64,000 bases of DNA, taken from contig SUTF01000008.1 of the NCBI GenBank assembly GCA_015063005.1, positions 67,060-131,059 on the forward strand. The letters are read 5' to 3'. The position numbers and the translations under genes are program-made. This DNA is from Methanobrevibacter millerae (GTDB taxonomy: Archaea > Methanobacteriota > Methanobacteria > Methanobacteriales > Methanobacteriaceae). A model generated the notes under the pieces. It saw only the letters and a program-made list of their open reading frames with translations. It ran no database searches and was not told the DNA's origin. Positions 29,131 to 51,658 of this stretch are shown here, one piece after another. Positions within the stretch are counted from its first letter, which is position 1; each line of letters opens with the position of its first letter.

Positions 29131-29508
29131 ATGTCCAACGAAATAGTATGTCCAGTAGATAGAACAATGAATTTAATTAATAAAAAATGGAGTATTCAAA
29201 TAATTAGAGACTTATTTTTTGGAAAAAAACATTTTAAAGAATTTAAAGAAGGAAAAGACATTAGCAACAAAGTTTTATCCAGTTGTTTAACAGATTTAGA
29301 AGAAAATGGAATAATAGAAAAGAAAGTTTTGAATACGAAACCTGTAAGTACCGAATATTCATTAACAGAATATGGAAAATCCATGAATAGAATCATTTAT
29401 GAATTAGCAATGTTTACATTGAATGATGAAAAAGACAGAGTTTACAGTGACAAAACAAAGGAACAGATGAAAAAAGATTTTAAACAAACATTGGAAATTG
29501 ATGATTAA
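29131..29508 (+). CDS. HxlR-family winged-helix transcriptional regulator (125 aa)
   Basis: The family signature is plain: CPVDRTMNLINKKWSIQII at the start, LFFGKKHFKEF, the recognition region SNKVLSSCLTDLEENG, and YSLTEYG near 88-94. Cys7 matches the redox/electrophile-sensing N-terminal cysteine found in YodB/HypR-type members; a second cysteine is at 52. AGGTGA precedes the ATG. The gene is divergent from the macrodomain-sirtuin operon with a palindrome between, so it probably controls that operon, itself and possibly the cbiE gene that follows one base after its stop. Confidence 0.87.
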   Translation: MSNEIVCPVDRTMNLINKKWSIQIIRDLFFGKKHFKEFKEGKDISNKVLSSCLTDLEENGIIEKKVLNTKPVSTEYSLTEYGKSMNRIIYELAMFTLNDEKDRVYSDKTKEQMKKDFKQTLEIDD

Positions 29509-29509
29509 T

Positions 29510-30157
29510 ATGTCTGGAAAAATATTTATTATAGGAATAGGACCTGGTGCTGAGGAATATTTAACTTTAAAAGCAGTGAACTGTGTAAAAAATTGCGATT
29601 ATACCGTAGGAAGTACAAGAGCCATAGACTTATTCAGTGATGTGAAAAATACAATTGCATTCAATGTTAAGGATTTACTGGATAAATTGGAAGAAGGTGT
29701 TGATTTGGCCATCAAAGGCAATAGCGTTGCTATCCTATCAACAGGAGATCCAGGATTTTCCGGAGTTTTAAATACAGTATTAAGGATTTCTGATGAAAAA
29801 GGATTATCAAAAGACAATATCAAAGTAATTCCCGGAATAAGTTCTCTTCAGCTTGCAGCTGCCAGAAATCATATCCAATGGGATAGCGCTAATGTAATGA
29901 CATTCCATGGAAGGGAAAATGTAGAAGACATCCTGGAGGTCATTGATAATGGAAAGACAACGATAGCACTTCCTTCAAGAAAAGTCAAGGACATGGCACA
30001 ATTTTTGCTTGACAATGGAGTTAGCGAATCAAGGAAAGTTACGGTTTGTGAGAGACTTTCATATCCTGATGAAAAAATTGTCTCAACATCACTGAAAGAT
30101 ATTGCGACAAGCGAATTTACTTATATGTGCATAATGATAATAGAAGGTAAAAATTGA
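29510..30157 (+). CDS. cbiE: Cobalt-precorrin-7 (C5)-methyltransferase CbiE
   Basis: CbiE transfers a methyl group from S-adenosylmethionine to C5 of cobalt-precorrin-7 in anaerobic corrinoid synthesis, needed for methyltransferases of methanogenesis. Tetrapyrrole methylase signatures are GIGPGAEEYLT, STGDPGFSG, PGISSLQLAAA and the late GKTTIALPSRK. Length 215 fits the single-domain CbiE. I start at ATG 29510 (MSGKIFIIGIG), one base after the HxlR stop. No CbiT or other cobalamin gene is adjacent, so it is dispersed. Confidence 0.88.
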   Translation: MSGKIFIIGIGPGAEEYLTLKAVNCVKNCDYTVGSTRAIDLFSDVKNTIAFNVKDLLDKLEEGVDLAIKGNSVAILSTGDPGFSGVLNTVLRISDEKGLSKDNIKVIPGISSLQLAAARNHIQWDSANVMTFHGRENVEDILEVIDNGKTTIALPSRKVKDMAQFLLDNGVSESRKVTVCERLSYPDEKIVSTSLKDIATSEFTYMCIMIIEGKN

Positions 30158-30276: not shown

Positions 30277-33200
30277 ATGATTAAAAAAATAAGCACAATA
30301 GTCTTTATTTTCCTAACTATTTTTTTAATTAGCTCTGTTTCAGCAACAGAATTGGAAAATAAAACAATAACAACGGAAAGTAACACACAAGACATTCAAA
30401 TTGAAAGTCATGATGTGGAAATGTATTATAAAGACGGAACACGATTCAATACGCAGATACACGACGAAAACAAAAATCCATTATACAATGCTACGGTGAC
30501 ATATTCATTAAATGGAATGAATTATACTCGCCAAACAAATGAAAACGGCGAATCATCATTAGCAATCAATTTGGAAAGTGGAAACTATAGCATAACGACA
30601 ATGTCAAATGAAGTATCAGTTACTAACAACATTGATGTTAAAAGTACCATCTATTCATCAGATATTGTCAAAATATACAGAAACTCAACGCAATATTATG
30701 CCAAATTTCTAGACAATAATGGTGAATTGCTAAAAAATACTCCAGTGACATTCAACATCAATGGAGTTTTCTACACAAGAACAACTAATGAAAGCGGAAT
30801 AGCTAAATTGAATATAAATCTGAATCAAGGCGAATACATTTTAACAGCAATGAACAGCAAAACAACGGAAATGAAAAGCAACAAGATTACAGTTCTTCCA
30901 TTAATCACAAGCAACAGGGACGTGGTGAAGTATTATAAAAACGCTACAAAATACTCTGTTACAATACTTGAAAAAAATGGAGAAAAGGTCGGATCAGGCC
31001 ATGACGTTGAATTTAATATAAACGGTGTGTTTTATTATCGTCAAACTGATTTGTATGGAGTAGCTAGTCTGAATTTAAATTTAGAACCTGGAGAATATAT
31101 TATAACGGCACAGTATGAAAGCTGCAGAGTGTCAAACAATATTAAAATACTGCCTACACTAACTGCAAAAGATGTCAGGATGGAGTATAAAGACGGGACA
31201 AAATTTAAAGTCCATTTGGTTGATGGCATTGGAAAGAATTCCGAATATGAACAAATAACATTCAATATCAATGGAGTATTCTACACAAGAACAACAAATG
31301 AGAATGGAATAGCTAGCTTAAATATAAACCTTGATGTTGGAACATACATCATTACTTCAGAGCATAATGGCCTTAAAGTATCAAACACCATCACAATAGA
31401 ACCTAAATCCGAAAAAGAAGTTATTAAAAATAATAACTTTACCTATGAAATTGCAGTGCCGAATTATGTGAATATTACATGTCCTTACGCTTATGAAAAT
31501 AGCGCATATACTATTCAAAGCGGTTATAACGGAATTATAAGGCTTGAGAAAAATCAACTCATTAATATTGAGGTAGGATATAAAAATTATATCTTTTCAA
31601 CAGGTTATATGCCCGAATATAGTGCCACATATTTAGGTAGCGAATATTATCTATTGCCATTTGACAATACTCCAACTCAGCATAGCTACAAGTATGAAAA
31701 ATTGACTGGAAATGGATTAATATTATATAGAAGCTCAAATTATACCCATTTTATTTACAGGAACAACTGCAGCAGCAATGTTGAACAGTTCGGAGCATAT
31801 ATCGATAAAGGTATGGACAATAGCGAAATAATCAAGTATATTCAAAATGGAGAAACTGTTGCAAAAGTCCAATTCCAAACAATGAGCTTTGATGAAATGG
31901 GTTTAAAGTACAGTTTATCCAAGCTTTATGGATGTACAATATATGATTTTGATACAAAAAGCTATGGAGAAATAACAAAAGGAAATATCGACAGCATTAG
32001 ATTTGTAAATACCAATACTGAAGTCATATTTGATTATTTTGGAAAGAAAATTGTGGGAGACATTATTGAAGAAAACATAATAACAAAATTTAATGCCTCA
32101 AACTGCATAGAATTTGAAAAGGAAGAATTGATAACCTATGGATTAAGTGACAAATATAAACGGGATTTTGATGTATTGCAATCATTTGCCCTTATAAACA
32201 AGAAAATTGACGATAAAATAATGAATGAATGGCTTTTAAAAGAAAATGATTATAGGACTGATTCAGGAATGCAAAGCATACATGCCATGTTTATAACTTC
32301 CCTCAATACAGCTTATCTAAGTGATAAGCTAGCGGATGAATTGACTACCACTTATGCTGTTAGATGGTCAAGAACAAACAATACAGTCATTCTTGGAGCA
32401 ATGAACTGGAAAGATACCTATCAGCACATCCTAACTCCAAATATGGGTAGATTTGTTGAAGGAGATAATGAAAGTGAAATTATAAATTATCGCTTTGCCA
32501 ATTCCATACTTCTCTCAAAAATAGAACAGGCCAGTTTAAAACCGATAGCTGAGGATGCCGACGTTAACATTACCTCAGTATTTGACGATGTTTTCAAATC
32601 ATTGGCTTCATTTAAAACCAGCATTGTATACTATAACAATAGTGCAATTATAACCAATGAAAATGGAAATTCAAGCTTCATAATTGATTTAAATACTGGA
32701 TTAGTAACTCCATTATTAATAAAGGACAACTTTGCATACAAGGGAGTTACAATAACAAGAGACTGCGGATTGTGTAGCATAAATAGCATGGTAAAAAATG
32801 TTATGATGAACGTCAATAATGGAATTTTTAATCCGAACGGCGTACTAGACTACATCAGCGACAATATTCAACCATTAACCTCCTTTGCCATTAAAGGAAC
32901 TATGATATTGAAAGGAATAGTTGGAGCTTTGATTGGAGGAAGCTTAACAGTTGGATTATCCGTATTTGGAACCGCAATCAGTATTCAAGGTATTGGAGTA
33001 TACTGTGTAGACAAATTCGTTGAAGAGAAAGACATCCATACAGCATACGACTACATTACATTTACAAGGCCAGGTTACCTACAAAATACCAAAATCTACA
33101 ATATTCCTCATGAAGACGGAAGTATGGATTATATTGAAATTCCAATAAACAAAGATAATTCCTATGACCGTGAAAACGTGAAATATATAAGTGAAGGCAA

Positions 33201-33291
33201 TGTTAAAATATTAACTAAACAAGAAACTTATAAATATTTCACAGAAGAAAATTGGAGTCCTTATAATGTCCCGCAAAAATACTGGAGATGA
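30277..33291 (+). CDS. Secreted Ig-repeat protein with large uncharacterised C-terminal domain (1004 aa)
   Basis: The ATG at 30277 starts a signal peptide (IKKISTIVFIFLTIFLISSVSA). Residues about 38-385 hold four Ig-like repeats of the family seen in neighbouring adhesins; the first begins DVEMYYKDGTRF, the middle two DIVKIYRNSTQY and DVVKYYKNATKY, and the fourth DVRMEYKDGTKFK. The remaining about 600 residues match no family I recognise. They contain scattered cysteines (CGLC near 830), a Gly-rich hydrophobic hairpin-like stretch (residues about 870-915) and a polar tail ending in WSPYNVPQKYWR. Here the repeats are at the N-terminus with the unusual domain outermost in sequence, the reverse of the other surface proteins. 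A small membrane protein gene follows 4 bases after the stop. Confidence 0.85.
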   Translation: MIKKISTIVFIFLTIFLISSVSATELENKTITTESNTQDIQIESHDVEMYYKDGTRFNTQIHDENKNPLYNATVTYSLNGMNYTRQTNENGESSLAINLESGNYSITTMSNEVSVTNNIDVKSTIYSSDIVKIYRNSTQYYAKFLDNNGELLKNTPVTFNINGVFYTRTTNESGIAKLNINLNQGEYILTAMNSKTTEMKSNKITVLPLITSNRDVVKYYKNATKYSVTILEKNGEKVGSGHDVEFNINGVFYYRQTDLYGVASLNLNLEPGEYIITAQYESCRVSNNIKILPTLTAKDVRMEYKDGTKFKVHLVDGIGKNSEYEQITFNINGVFYTRTTNENGIASLNINLDVGTYIITSEHNGLKVSNTITIEPKSEKEVIKNNNFTYEIAVPNYVNITCPYAYENSAYTIQSGYNGIIRLEKNQLINIEVGYKNYIFSTGYMPEYSATYLGSEYYLLPFDNTPTQHSYKYEKLTGNGLILYRSSNYTHFIYRNNCSSNVEQFGAYIDKGMDNSEIIKYIQNGETVAKVQFQTMSFDEMGLKYSLSKLYGCTIYDFDTKSYGEITKGNIDSIRFVNTNTEVIFDYFGKKIVGDIIEENIITKFNASNCIEFEKEELITYGLSDKYKRDFDVLQSFALINKKIDDKIMNEWLLKENDYRTDSGMQSIHAMFITSLNTAYLSDKLADELTTTYAVRWSRTNNTVILGAMNWKDTYQHILTPNMGRFVEGDNESEIINYRFANSILLSKIEQASLKPIAEDADVNITSVFDDVFKSLASFKTSIVYYNNSAIITNENGNSSFIIDLNTGLVTPLLIKDNFAYKGVTITRDCGLCSINSMVKNVMMNVNNGIFNPNGVLDYISDNIQPLTSFAIKGTMILKGIVGALIGGSLTVGLSVFGTAISIQGIGVYCVDKFVEEKDIHTAYDYITFTRPGYLQNTKIYNIPHEDGSMDYIEIPINKDNSYDRENVKYISEGNVKILTKQETYKYFTEENWSPYNVPQKYWR

Positions 33292-33295
33292 AAAA

Positions 33296-33490
33296 ATGTC
33301 ATTGCTTGACCAGATAAAAGAAAATTGGAATAAAAACCCATTAATAATCAGAGTTACGTTCATTCTTCTAGTAATATCATTCATCTATGACATGGTGACA
33401 GGACAAACGTTCAGCATATTCTTTTCCGTTTGTTTACTGTTATTCATAATAGCGGAACTGGTTAATTGGTTTTACTACAAAAAAGAATAA
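33296..33490 (+). CDS. Small two-helix membrane protein coupled to the preceding secreted protein (64 aa)
   Basis: The ATG at 33296 lies 4 bases after the stop of the preceding gene with GGAGAT overlapping that stop, so translation is coupled. An upstream in-frame ATG at 33266 would begin inside the previous gene and is less likely. Residues about 17-32 and 36-58 are two hydrophobic helices separated by a short loop; the tail is YYKKE. It resembles no family I can name. Its position suggests a partner of the large secreted protein (immunity-like, export or anchoring factor), which is inference. Confidence 0.7.
   Translation: MSLLDQIKENWNKNPLIIRVTFILLVISFIYDMVTGQTFSIFFSVCLLLFIIAELVNWFYYKKE

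Positions 33491-33543: not shown

Positions 33544-33546
<3 letters not shown>
33508..33546. terminator. Bidirectional terminator between convergent genes
   Basis: AGTTAAAATT and AATTTTAACT form perfect 10-base arms (33508-33517 and 33523-33532) with a 5-base loop. A T-rich run follows on the plus strand, and a T-run follows on the minus strand (33491-33506). It lies between the convergent two-helix protein gene and the Get3-type ATPase gene. Confidence 0.7.
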
Positions 33547-34916
<1,370 letters not shown>

Positions 34917-48460: not shown

Positions 48461-51400
48461 TTGAATAAACTTAAAATATTTCTAGTATTATTTGTGTTAT
48501 TGATATCCATAAGTGCAGTGTCTGCCGAAGGAAATTTCACATCAATTCAGAATGAAATTGCAGACAGTGCAGAACGTATTGACATAACACAAGATTATAC
48601 TTATGATGAAAAAGCAGATACCATTATAGATTCAGGTATTATAGTAAATAAAACTAATTTTTTAATCGATGGACATGGACATACATTGAATGGAAATAAC
48701 CAAACAAGGATTTTTCATGTTGTTGGTAACAATGTTGTAATAGCTAACCTCAATTTCGTTAACGGAAATGGTAACATCGGTGGTGCAATAATATGTGAAG
48801 GAAGTACAACAATTTACAATTGTACATTTTCAAACAACTATGCTTCATCTGATGGAGGAGCAGTCGTATTTAAAACAAACGGACAAGTAATTGCTTCAAC
48901 ATTTACAGATAATTACTCACCAGATTCAGCTGCAATAGCAGTGTATGAATCAGAAGTGAGCATTAATTCATCTCTATTTACAAGCAGTATAGAACTTGAA
49001 AAAGGATATATTTCCGGTTCTAAAGCATCAATAATTGTGAACAACAGTATTTTTGCGAATACTATTTCAAAATATGCTGCAATAATAAGTGATAGAACAA
49101 CATTAATTCAAAATTCAAGATTTATAAACTTGCATGCCAAAGAAAGTGGTGGAGCAATCATTTTAAAAGAAATTGATGATGCTATCATCATAAACAGTAC
49201 TTTCATTAATGTTACTTCACAAAAAAATGCTGGAGCAGTATTGCTAGATGCACCTGGTTTCAAATACAAAAATAATGGAACACTAATGATTCATGAATGT
49301 GAATTCATCAACTGTTCTTCAAACTTTGGTGGAGCGGTTGTTTTGCTTGGTGGAAATGCAAGCATAACAAAAACAGATTTCATAAATAATAAAGCAGTTT
49401 TCGATGGTGGAGCAGTATATACTTCATTCAATAATCTCAGGATAGCAAATACCATATTTGAAGGCAATAGCTTAATTTATGATGATAAAGACATGGCTCA
49501 TGGAGGAGCTATTTATTCAGACGTTTGTGATTTAGAGATTTACAATACCAAATTTTCAAATAATGACAACAATGCAATTTACGCTTACGACTCAAATATA
49601 ATCGTGAACGCAACCTTTTTAAACAATACCGAAGCAATTCATGGAGTATTTTTAAACAAATATAATGTTTATTATAATACTGATACAAGTGACATATTTA
49701 TCTTTAATGACACATTCTTCCCATTCGTTATTTCTGAAAAAGGTGCGAAACTAAACTTTACCAATAACGATATCGTAATAAAGAAACTTCCATCCAAATA
49801 CAATTCAGCTGACTGGGGATGGGTAAGTTCCATTAAAGACCAAGGTGCTGATAACTCATGTTGGGCATTCGGAACAGCAGCAGCAATAGAATCATCCATA
49901 TTGGCAGATACAGACGTTGAATATGATTTTTCAGAAAACAATATTCAAAATTCAATGATTAGATATTCAAAATATGGTGCATTGACTAGTGAAGGTGGAG
50001 ACATATTAATGTCAGCACTTTATGCCCTCAATTGGTTTGGAATGCTTCCAACCTATGATGATACATATGACGAATACGGAAAAATACCATTATTAATTTC
50101 CGGCGAAGACAACATTCATATACAGGATGCAGTGTTAATCAAAGCACGTAAAAATGTTACAGACAATTTCAATATCAAACGTGCCATATTAGAATACGGA
50201 GCAATAACTACTGGAATTAAATCAGTGGGTGCACCATACTATAATTCAACCAACGCTGCACAATACTACAATAATGCAAGTGACATTGATTGTAATCACA
50301 TTATAGCTGTTGTTGGATGGGATGATACCTACTCCAAAAACAATTTCATAATCACACCGCCAGGAGATGGCGCATGGATTGTTAAAAACAGTTATGGAAC
50401 CAAACATGGAGATGAAGGATTCGACTACGTATCATATTATGACCTTACATTATTCTCCGAAGAATCCATGGCATACCTCTTTGATAATAATGAATCATAT
50501 GACACCAATTACCAACGTGATTTCGGAGGAGAACTTGAATTAAACAAAACTGATGGTGTAACTTACAGGACTACATACACCTGTGTCCAAGACGGATATT
50601 TAAGTGCAATAGGATCATGGTTTGAACAAGATTCCCCATTCACATACAATATTTACATCAATGACAAATTAATATTAAACCATACTGAAAAATCCCCATT
50701 CACAGGATATCACACAGTTCCATTATATGAATACATATCCGTAGACGAAGGTGATGAAATTGCTGTTGAATTAACTAATACAATGTTTCCAACAATTAAA
50801 AAATCAAGAGTACATTACGAAACAAACAAATCCTTCGTTTTAAATAATGGTAAATGGTTTGATTTAGCTAACATGGACAGAACCTTATCATTAAAAGTAT
50901 ATACCCAAAGTTCCGTTGAAGGCCTAGCTACAGGAGACATAAAGAAAGTTTATAAAAACGGCACCCAATTTGAAGCAAACGTTAAAGTTGCCGGTGCTGA
51001 TGTAGTCTTTGAAATCAATGGTAATAAATATACAAGAACAAGTAATGAAAAAGGTGTAGCTTCATTAAATATTAACTTAGAACCTAATAACTATACCATT
51101 AAAACAACATATAATGGTAAAACAGTTCAAAACGATATTGAAGTATTGCCAACATTAATTGGACAAGACTTAGTAAAATACTACAGAAACGATTCACAAT
51201 TCTATGTTGAATTAATCGATGGTCAATGTAATCCTGTACCTAATACAAATATTACCATGAACATTAATGGAGTATTTTACGAAAGAACAACCAATGATAA
51301 AGGAATTGCTCGTTTAAATATTAATTTAAACCCTGGAAAATATATATTAACTGCTATCGATCCATTAACCGGTTATGAAGAAGCATTTAACATAACAGTA

Positions 51401-51658
51401 CTTCCAGTATTGACAGCAAATGACATCAACATGACATATCGCGATGGAACACAATTCAAAGCTACAATAGTTGATGGTCAAGGAAAACCAATATCCGGAG
51501 TTAATATAACATTTAATGTAAATGGAGTCTTCTATCAAAGAACAACCGATGGAAATGGAACAGCTAAATTAAACATTAACTTAATGGCTGGAGAATACAT
51601 CATCACTTCACAGTACGAAAGTGCTGTAACCTCAAATACAATTACCATTAAAGAATAA
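48461..51658 (+). CDS. Secreted beta-helix/papain-like protease/Ig-repeat surface protein (1065 aa)
   Basis: The start is TTG at 48461 with GGAGG upstream; residues 1-22 are a signal peptide ending SAVSA. Residues about 30-440 are beta-helix. Residues about 445-690 are a C1A papain-like peptidase: Gln460 (oxyanion), Cys467 in NSCWAFGT, His613 in CNHIIAVVGWDD and Asn643 in WIVKNSYGTKHGDEGF, a complete catalytic set. A lectin-like beta domain (about 690-800) follows. Then come three Ig repeats (DIKKVYKNGTQF, DLVKYYRNDSQF, DINMTYRDGTQFK). It is thus a surface-bound cysteine protease, perhaps against peptide cross-links of pseudomurein or host/competitor proteins (inference). A terminator hairpin overlaps the stop. 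Confidence 0.92.
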   Translation: MNKLKIFLVLFVLLISISAVSAEGNFTSIQNEIADSAERIDITQDYTYDEKADTIIDSGIIVNKTNFLIDGHGHTLNGNNQTRIFHVVGNNVVIANLNFVNGNGNIGGAIICEGSTTIYNCTFSNNYASSDGGAVVFKTNGQVIASTFTDNYSPDSAAIAVYESEVSINSSLFTSSIELEKGYISGSKASIIVNNSIFANTISKYAAIISDRTTLIQNSRFINLHAKESGGAIILKEIDDAIIINSTFINVTSQKNAGAVLLDAPGFKYKNNGTLMIHECEFINCSSNFGGAVVLLGGNASITKTDFINNKAVFDGGAVYTSFNNLRIANTIFEGNSLIYDDKDMAHGGAIYSDVCDLEIYNTKFSNNDNNAIYAYDSNIIVNATFLNNTEAIHGVFLNKYNVYYNTDTSDIFIFNDTFFPFVISEKGAKLNFTNNDIVIKKLPSKYNSADWGWVSSIKDQGADNSCWAFGTAAAIESSILADTDVEYDFSENNIQNSMIRYSKYGALTSEGGDILMSALYALNWFGMLPTYDDTYDEYGKIPLLISGEDNIHIQDAVLIKARKNVTDNFNIKRAILEYGAITTGIKSVGAPYYNSTNAAQYYNNASDIDCNHIIAVVGWDDTYSKNNFIITPPGDGAWIVKNSYGTKHGDEGFDYVSYYDLTLFSEESMAYLFDNNESYDTNYQRDFGGELELNKTDGVTYRTTYTCVQDGYLSAIGSWFEQDSPFTYNIYINDKLILNHTEKSPFTGYHTVPLYEYISVDEGDEIAVELTNTMFPTIKKSRVHYETNKSFVLNNGKWFDLANMDRTLSLKVYTQSSVEGLATGDIKKVYKNGTQFEANVKVAGADVVFEINGNKYTRTSNEKGVASLNINLEPNNYTIKTTYNGKTVQNDIEVLPTLIGQDLVKYYRNDSQFYVELIDGQCNPVPNTNITMNINGVFYERTTNDKGIARLNINLNPGKYILTAIDPLTGYEEAFNITVLPVLTANDINMTYRDGTQFKATIVDGQGKPISGVNITFNVNGVFYQRTTDGNGTAKLNINLMAGEYIITSQYESAVTSNTITIKE

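Follow-up and report, generated by a model that had tools for sequence, protein, structure and literature searches.

We report that a gene pair of Methanobrevibacter millerae, encoding a large surface protein with N-terminal Ig-like repeats and a small membrane protein, with moderate probability represents a wall-anchored, membrane-active effector and its membrane immunity protein, a toxic function that we infer. At the sequence level, comparison of related loci reveals tails linked to partners, modularity, tail exchange, orphan cassettes and joint travel of the variable middle of the tail with the partner. By analogy, polymorphic effector/immunity systems are known by just these traits of modularity, linked tails and partners, exchanged tails and arrayed cassettes, and since the variable part is hydrophobic and the partners are membrane proteins, the data point to a membrane-active effector. 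It is possible, if somewhat doubtful, that the Methanobacteriota, including M. smithii (human gut) and M. thermautotrophicus, have a lineage-specific polymorphic weapon system of wall-bound proteins with exchangeable hydrophobic killing tails and matched membrane immunity proteins, in which arrayed stand-alone tail-immunity cassettes would serve as donors for specificity switching. To our knowledge, interference weapons of methanogens have hardly been described, and rivalry genes of such kind have been little studied in archaea. If true, the system would provide a mechanism by which strains exclude one another among the major methanogens of gut and rumen, would be a source of inhibitors specific to methanogens, of interest for controlling methane, and would account for some of the many "adhesin-like" genes; it can be tested in Methanothermobacter, where an array occurs.

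Layout of the locus

The window, i.e. the whole stretch of 64,000 nucleotides that was analysed, derives from an assembly of 20 contigs (2.16 Mb). The large gene (30277-33291, plus strand) encodes 1004 amino acids from an ATG start, or 1008 from an upstream TTG. The original prediction of an Ig-repeat protein followed by a 64-residue two-helix membrane protein agrees with the open reading frames (ORFs), the small gene beginning 4 bases past the stop. The features are as follows (strand in brackets).

29498-30157 (+): tetrapyrrole methylase, fixed upstream neighbour outside the system (Pfam, 1.1e-32)
30277-30345 (+): signal-peptide-like N-terminus, residues 1-23 (hydropathy, translation)
30394-31404 (+): four Ig-like (archaeal Big) repeats, residues 40-376 (Pfam; repeat number by eye)
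31405-32724 (+): conserved core, residues 377-816, a beta region and then an alpha/beta domain (~617-827; profile matches, model)
32725-32844 (+): linker, residues 817-856, beginning at the 'YKG' boundary where the tails of relatives diverge
32845-33006 (+): variable Gly-rich hydrophobic segment, residues 857-910, proposed to be membrane-active (conservation)
33007-33288 (+): conserved terminal domain, residues 911-1004, 'DYIEV...ETYxYF' (conservation; stand-alone ORFs elsewhere)
33296-33490 (+): 64-residue two-helix membrane partner, proposed immunity protein (ORF, hydropathy)
33544-34551 (-): ArsA-family ATPase, convergent fixed neighbour outside the system (Pfam, 1.7e-110)

The N-terminus is hydrophobic, with its top 19-residue Kyte-Doolittle (KD) window at residue 5 (2.32), and the Ig-like Pfam matches (Big_3_5, 3.1e-10; Big_1, 2.7e-9) fall within the first ~375 residues. 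With the large protein as query, 96 other matches were obtained in its own genome, every one in the N-terminal half. The claim that the Ig repeats come first, unlike in other surface proteins, is borne out for the two other Ig proteins of the window that were scanned, in which Pfam places Ig at residues 995-1062 (total 1065) and 255-467 (total 491), but the order is not unique: Ig repeats precede the core in two of six relatives scanned (L124 and L125), and adhesin-like proteins with Ig first and a different C-terminal domain are already described in the available part of the source (Group III, PMC11532034). At 48461-51658 the window also encodes a cysteine protease of the papain family that carries its Ig repeat at the C-terminus and may act on pseudomurein.

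Within the C-terminal part, residues 857-896 are the least conserved stretch (mean pairwise identity 0.31) and residues 937-1004 the most conserved (0.64-0.66). A Gly-rich hydrophobic stretch had been noted here and was located at residues 876-911, with 19-residue windows at 876 (KD 1.76) and 893 (1.49); judged from sequence, its hydropathy would be marginal for a stable membrane span. Across 39 rows the top 19-residue KD of the segment is 1.2-2.1, which appears low for an anchor and would agree with a segment that inserts. This bears on an unlikely but serious alternative, that the two proteins form an anchoring or assembly pair in which the segment sits in the cell's own membrane, the small protein is an insertion or anchoring subunit and the Ig repeats reach outward: the marginal hydrophobicity speaks against it, as does the fact that a Methanothermobacter relative already has pseudomurein-binding repeats, while the near-constant linkage of the partner described below speaks in its favour.

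In the effector reading that we prefer, the large protein would be exported and held in the wall by its N-terminal repeats (Ig, or pseudomurein-binding in the Methanothermobacter relative), and the core would display the C-terminal tail, consisting of the Gly-rich, marginally hydrophobic segment and then the conserved terminal domain. The segment would probably insert into the membrane of a neighbouring archaeal cell and kill it; the small membrane protein, whose translation is probably coupled to that of the large one, would block the segment in the producer's own membrane and so protect it, and tail and partner would be swapped as a single cassette. Toxin domains usually vary, and that the terminal domain is the most conserved stretch counts against the effector reading.

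Homology and fold of the C-terminal part

The description of about 600 unrecognised C-terminal residues was upheld, in that Pfam and NCBIfam gave nothing above noise for the last 628 residues. The remote-homology and structure check that had been proposed likewise matched this part to no hydrolase or binding family or fold. The structural model has a pLDDT of 81 (below 50 in the hydrophobic segment) and the alpha/beta domain modelled alone one of 87.7. Foldseek returned no match at E <= 0.001 for the 628-residue part or for the alpha/beta domain alone, and the top VIA Z scores were 4.4 and 4.5, respectively; as modelled, neither seems convincingly like any solved structure, and such weak matches are no proof of a new fold. 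No pore fold was among the matches listed for the 628-residue model, in which the segment concerned is the low-confidence one, a point against the effector reading. A search of a viral collection gave no match. No known hydrolase or binding domain was found by sequence searches, by the fold of the 628-residue part or by that of the alpha/beta domain alone. In the proteins scanned with Pfam, NCBIfam and PADLOC, no known toxin or trafficking domain was present. Searched alone, the 628-residue part has one match in its own genome; a profile search of that genome shows a remnant of a core-family member with two stops (G000:C14:42501-42974).

The membrane partner

A partner was defined as a downstream ORF of 50-330 amino acids that lies no more than 450 bases away and has two or more hydropathy segments; transmembrane counts are given by hydropathy thresholds and not by a trained predictor. 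As the membrane nature is part of this definition, the argument is carried by the comparison with background, i.e. ORFs of at least 300 amino acids from the same loci. A partner follows 60 of the 62 terminal-domain tails and 19 of the 190 background ORFs (Fisher p 2e-38). The survey of partner presence that had been called for gave a membrane partner in 39 of 40 orthologous loci and in 21 of the 22 other terminal-domain rows (p 5e-17 for the latter; 19 of 20, p 1e-15, without one duplicate row and L136, which is orthologous). Most of the orthologous-locus partners (30/39) overlap the stop of the large gene or begin at most 10 bases from it; that of G006, of 72 residues, lies 11 bases downstream. 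In the lone exception, L119, a frameshifted partner precedes a decayed tail copy, which is followed by an intact partner (L119:8274-9600). Outside the orthologous set, no partner was found for the 70-residue terminal-domain piece of L146.

The 62 tails exclude seven weak rows with a tail score of at most 25 (two L122 pieces, L149, L154, L155, L183 and L185), six of which have a partner; L153 and L155 were judged spurious by eye, and the two L123 rows both come from a single broken tail. Under tighter limits, partners were found for 63 of 68 terminal-domain rows (weak tail hits included), 18 of 36 rows with other tails and 12 of 190 background ORFs. The expectation that homologues regularly keep the small gene holds for terminal-domain tails, which nearly always do so; other tails do so in 23 of 36 rows with the wider limits, and the 13 rows for which no partner was found, like the L146 piece, weigh against the effector reading. 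An impression that tails without the terminal domain have no partner was refuted by the same two counts. The other-tail class is mixed, with L151 and L152 having sub-threshold terminal-domain scores (19.9 and 18.0) and two L130 rows ending alike as judged by eye.

Partners in the genus are either two-segment proteins of ~57-79 amino acids or three- to four-segment proteins of ~104-126 amino acids, depending on the start, and species differ in having two-segment partners, four-segment partners or both, sometimes in tandem. With a profile of the two-segment partner, which misses divergent partner types, 43 matches were obtained from 41 of the 67 genus genomes; by position all but one of these, a weak match in G045, lie at a tail or tail remnant. 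Partner clusters sort by tail type. The partners of other-tail rows come in part from another family, a ten-member family of 215-286 amino acids is confined to other tails, and the single mixed cluster includes the broken L154 locus, counted twice.

Tail exchange and stand-alone cassettes

In the phylum, 99 of 151 genomes give a match to a profile built from the 628 residues; beyond the genus it is mostly the alpha/beta domain that matches (profile positions ~240-435), and as far as sequence profiles indicate, this domain is widespread in surface proteins of the Methanobacteriota. The tails of relatives are of one type with the same terminal domain, and of others with different hydrophobic tails. 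Within one genome (G102), the cores of L122 and L133 are identical at 136 of 274 positions, while their tails give a local score of 63 (the terminal-domain tails of L121, L122 and L124 score 211-368 with one another), and their partner families differ. Such interchangeable tails on a common core, found in L122/L133 and in other pairs, are a feature by which polymorphic toxin systems are recognised. Among the other-type tails, those of L133, L134, L129 and L132 have by eye pre-toxin-like helical regions; L133 has a five-segment partner, and none was found for L132.

Searching 138 genomes of the family with the terminal domain yielded short ORFs without a full core. The check for orphan partners turned up open partner genes beside decayed tails: L122 has a stop-interrupted main gene and three open partner genes with two broken tail pieces between them, and L141, L142, L148 and L149 have tail pieces of 29-134 amino acids together with open partner genes. 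Stand-alone tail/partner cassettes near full-length genes, likewise characteristic of polymorphic toxin systems, were found in L122, L119 and the arrays of G148. An anchoring pair offers no obvious role for such stand-alone cassettes, tandem partners and open partner genes beside decayed tails.

Cassette arrays in Methanothermobacter

In G148, two full-length genes and five further tails lie at 40.6-54.5 kb, each followed by a membrane ORF within 112 bases. At the DNA level five tails share 96-100% identity in the left arm and 48-61% in the middle, one duplicated cassette excepted; L187, the second full-length gene, stands further off with 73-76% in the left arm. The full-length L186 protein has three pseudomurein-binding repeats and a PKD domain in front. 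Interspersed in the array (L186 and L187, minus strand) are genes that by eye resemble TPR-repeat genes, as well as tails of another type.

Among 15 tail units from four genomes the mean similarity is high in the left (0.74) and right (0.82) flanks and low in the hydrophobic middle (0.24) and the partners (0.18), so that two variable parts, the middle and the partner, have a conserved stretch between them. Ten non-redundant units form 45 pairs, of which three have similar middles (>0.7), two of these with identical partners; for 41 of the 42 pairs with dissimilar middles the partner similarity is below 0.5. The third similar-middle pair involves an exceptional unit, the ORF from 5742 on the minus strand of L197, in which one middle is paired with the partner type of another, perhaps as a recombinant. 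Across the ten units, the more alike two middles are, the more alike their partners tend to be (r 0.55, p 0.003; 0.43, p 0.01, partial on the right flank, which alone gives 0.38, p 0.004). The correlation falls to -0.02 (n 8) once the two G140 cassettes that have the same partners as G148 cassettes are taken out, and with the duplicated cassette omitted it is 0.38 (p 0.14) in G148. Middle and partner thus move jointly as cassettes, and no gradual covariation shows once the shared cassettes are removed, which counts against the effector reading.

Joint variation of middle and partner, cassette by cassette, on a surface stalk would also suit recognition in place of killing, with tail and partner acting as variable ligand and receptor in kin recognition or aggregation, and non-toxin hypotheses are put forward in the available part of the source on VARTIG, another variable Ig module (PMC8416519). 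We nevertheless consider recognition very unlikely, as a hydrophobic variable part is more what one would expect for a target in the membrane than for contact between surfaces, with the caveat that the partners were sought as membrane ORFs and their membrane nature is partly built in.

Distribution and covariation in the genus

The C-terminal part was matched in 59 of 67 Methanobrevibacter genomes, including 35 of 37 good genomes; 58 of the matches are near full length and one is cut by a contig end, and eight genus genomes have extra, distant matches. All 40 named loci of relatives are from this genus. The ArsA-family gene is present beside 42 of 43 loci; the sole miss, L107, ends inside the large gene and was left out because its contig ends. 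The tetrapyrrole methylase is present beside 36 of 43, six of the seven misses being cut upstream and L115 not. The locus thus occupies one slot wherever flanks are present in the 43 loci, which indicates vertical inheritance, and a recent mobile island is ruled out by the fixed position between the tetrapyrrole methylase and the ArsA-type ATPase.

The idea of an effector/immunity pair passed the tests set with it (remote homology and structure, partner survey and orphan partners), but a syntenic, genus-wide distribution was unforeseen and is unusual for an effector. A near-universal, vertically inherited genus locus is the chief misfit of the effector reading, and also fits an anchoring pair. 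The fixed locus may be that of a core weapon whose specificity changes slowly, or it may have been domesticated. In the latter case, a former effector locus would have become a housekeeping surface protein in the genus, with cassette behaviour still active only outside it. We regard this as quite unlikely: a single orthologue per genome in a fixed slot, and a middle that within the clade of the window is nearly as conserved as the core (ratio 0.95), agree with domestication, but genus-wide the segment and the partner are still the fastest-changing parts, the partner sets differ between species and tail and partner are duplicated in L119.

Over 38 loci the mean distances are 0.47 for the core, 0.72 for the hydrophobic segment, 0.36 for the terminal domain and 0.76 for the partner. 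Segment and partner distances are correlated (partial r 0.42, p 0.0005, with the core removed; 0.41 with the terminal domain removed), and given the segment the terminal domain adds nothing (0.05, p 0.22); these genus p-values are generous, since a core stretch also reached p 0.002. In a sliding-window control the segment ranks first of 32 windows. Such covariation, seen when all 38 loci are used, would be expected of an anchoring pair as well. Without the clade of the M. millerae locus the segment covariation is 0.17-0.18, with other windows reaching 0.31, which suggests that the genus covariation rests largely on one clade split; we take this covariation as suggestive.

Relation to known systems

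Pore-forming colicins are secreted, carry a hydrophobic C-terminal hairpin and have a small multi-span membrane immunity protein encoded adjacent to them; in contrast, there is here no sequence or fold match to them and no pore fold in the model. Polymorphic toxin systems also have orphan cassettes, and a known toxin or trafficking domain is customary in them without being essential. The present system differs in that no such domain was found in the proteins scanned, in the conserved terminal domain behind the variable segment and in its archaeal wall-binding stalk. It resembles them, according to the part of the source that was available (Zhang et al. 2012, PMC3482391), in having a common N-terminal part, alternative C-terminal tails, a partner just downstream, tandem cassettes and a small hydrophobic domain of the kind predicted there to be pore-forming, among which Tox-WTIP is a hydrophobic two-helix toxin domain. 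The words methanogen, Methanobrevibacter and Methanosphaera are absent from the 300,000 of 357,715 characters of that source that were searched. No comparable system appears in the available parts of PMC8416519, PMC6393860, PMC12352652 and PMC13289728, and our claim of novelty is limited to the same degree as this coverage of the literature.

The VARTIG modules of the Thermococcales, for which the available part of the source reports no counterpart outside that group (PMC8416519), are similar in combining a large archaeal Ig-domain protein, a variable C-terminal part and variable downstream genes. Their variable part is, according to the same portion, an Ig domain, whereas here it is a hydrophobic segment with a membrane partner; the hypervariable C-terminal Ig domain by which VARTIG is recognised is absent, the Ig repeats being N-terminal. 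The adhesin-like proteins of Methanobrevibacter and Methanosphaera, as treated in the accessible parts of PMC11532034 and PMC2812497, are also secreted and carry archaeal Big (Ig) repeats, and some have other C-terminal domains; neither a downstream membrane partner nor tail exchange is described in those parts. They are defined by archaeal Big repeats or a beta-helix together with a membrane-anchoring or signal-like N-terminus (PMC11532034, in part), and with its Ig repeats and hydrophobic N-terminus the large protein of the window belongs among them.
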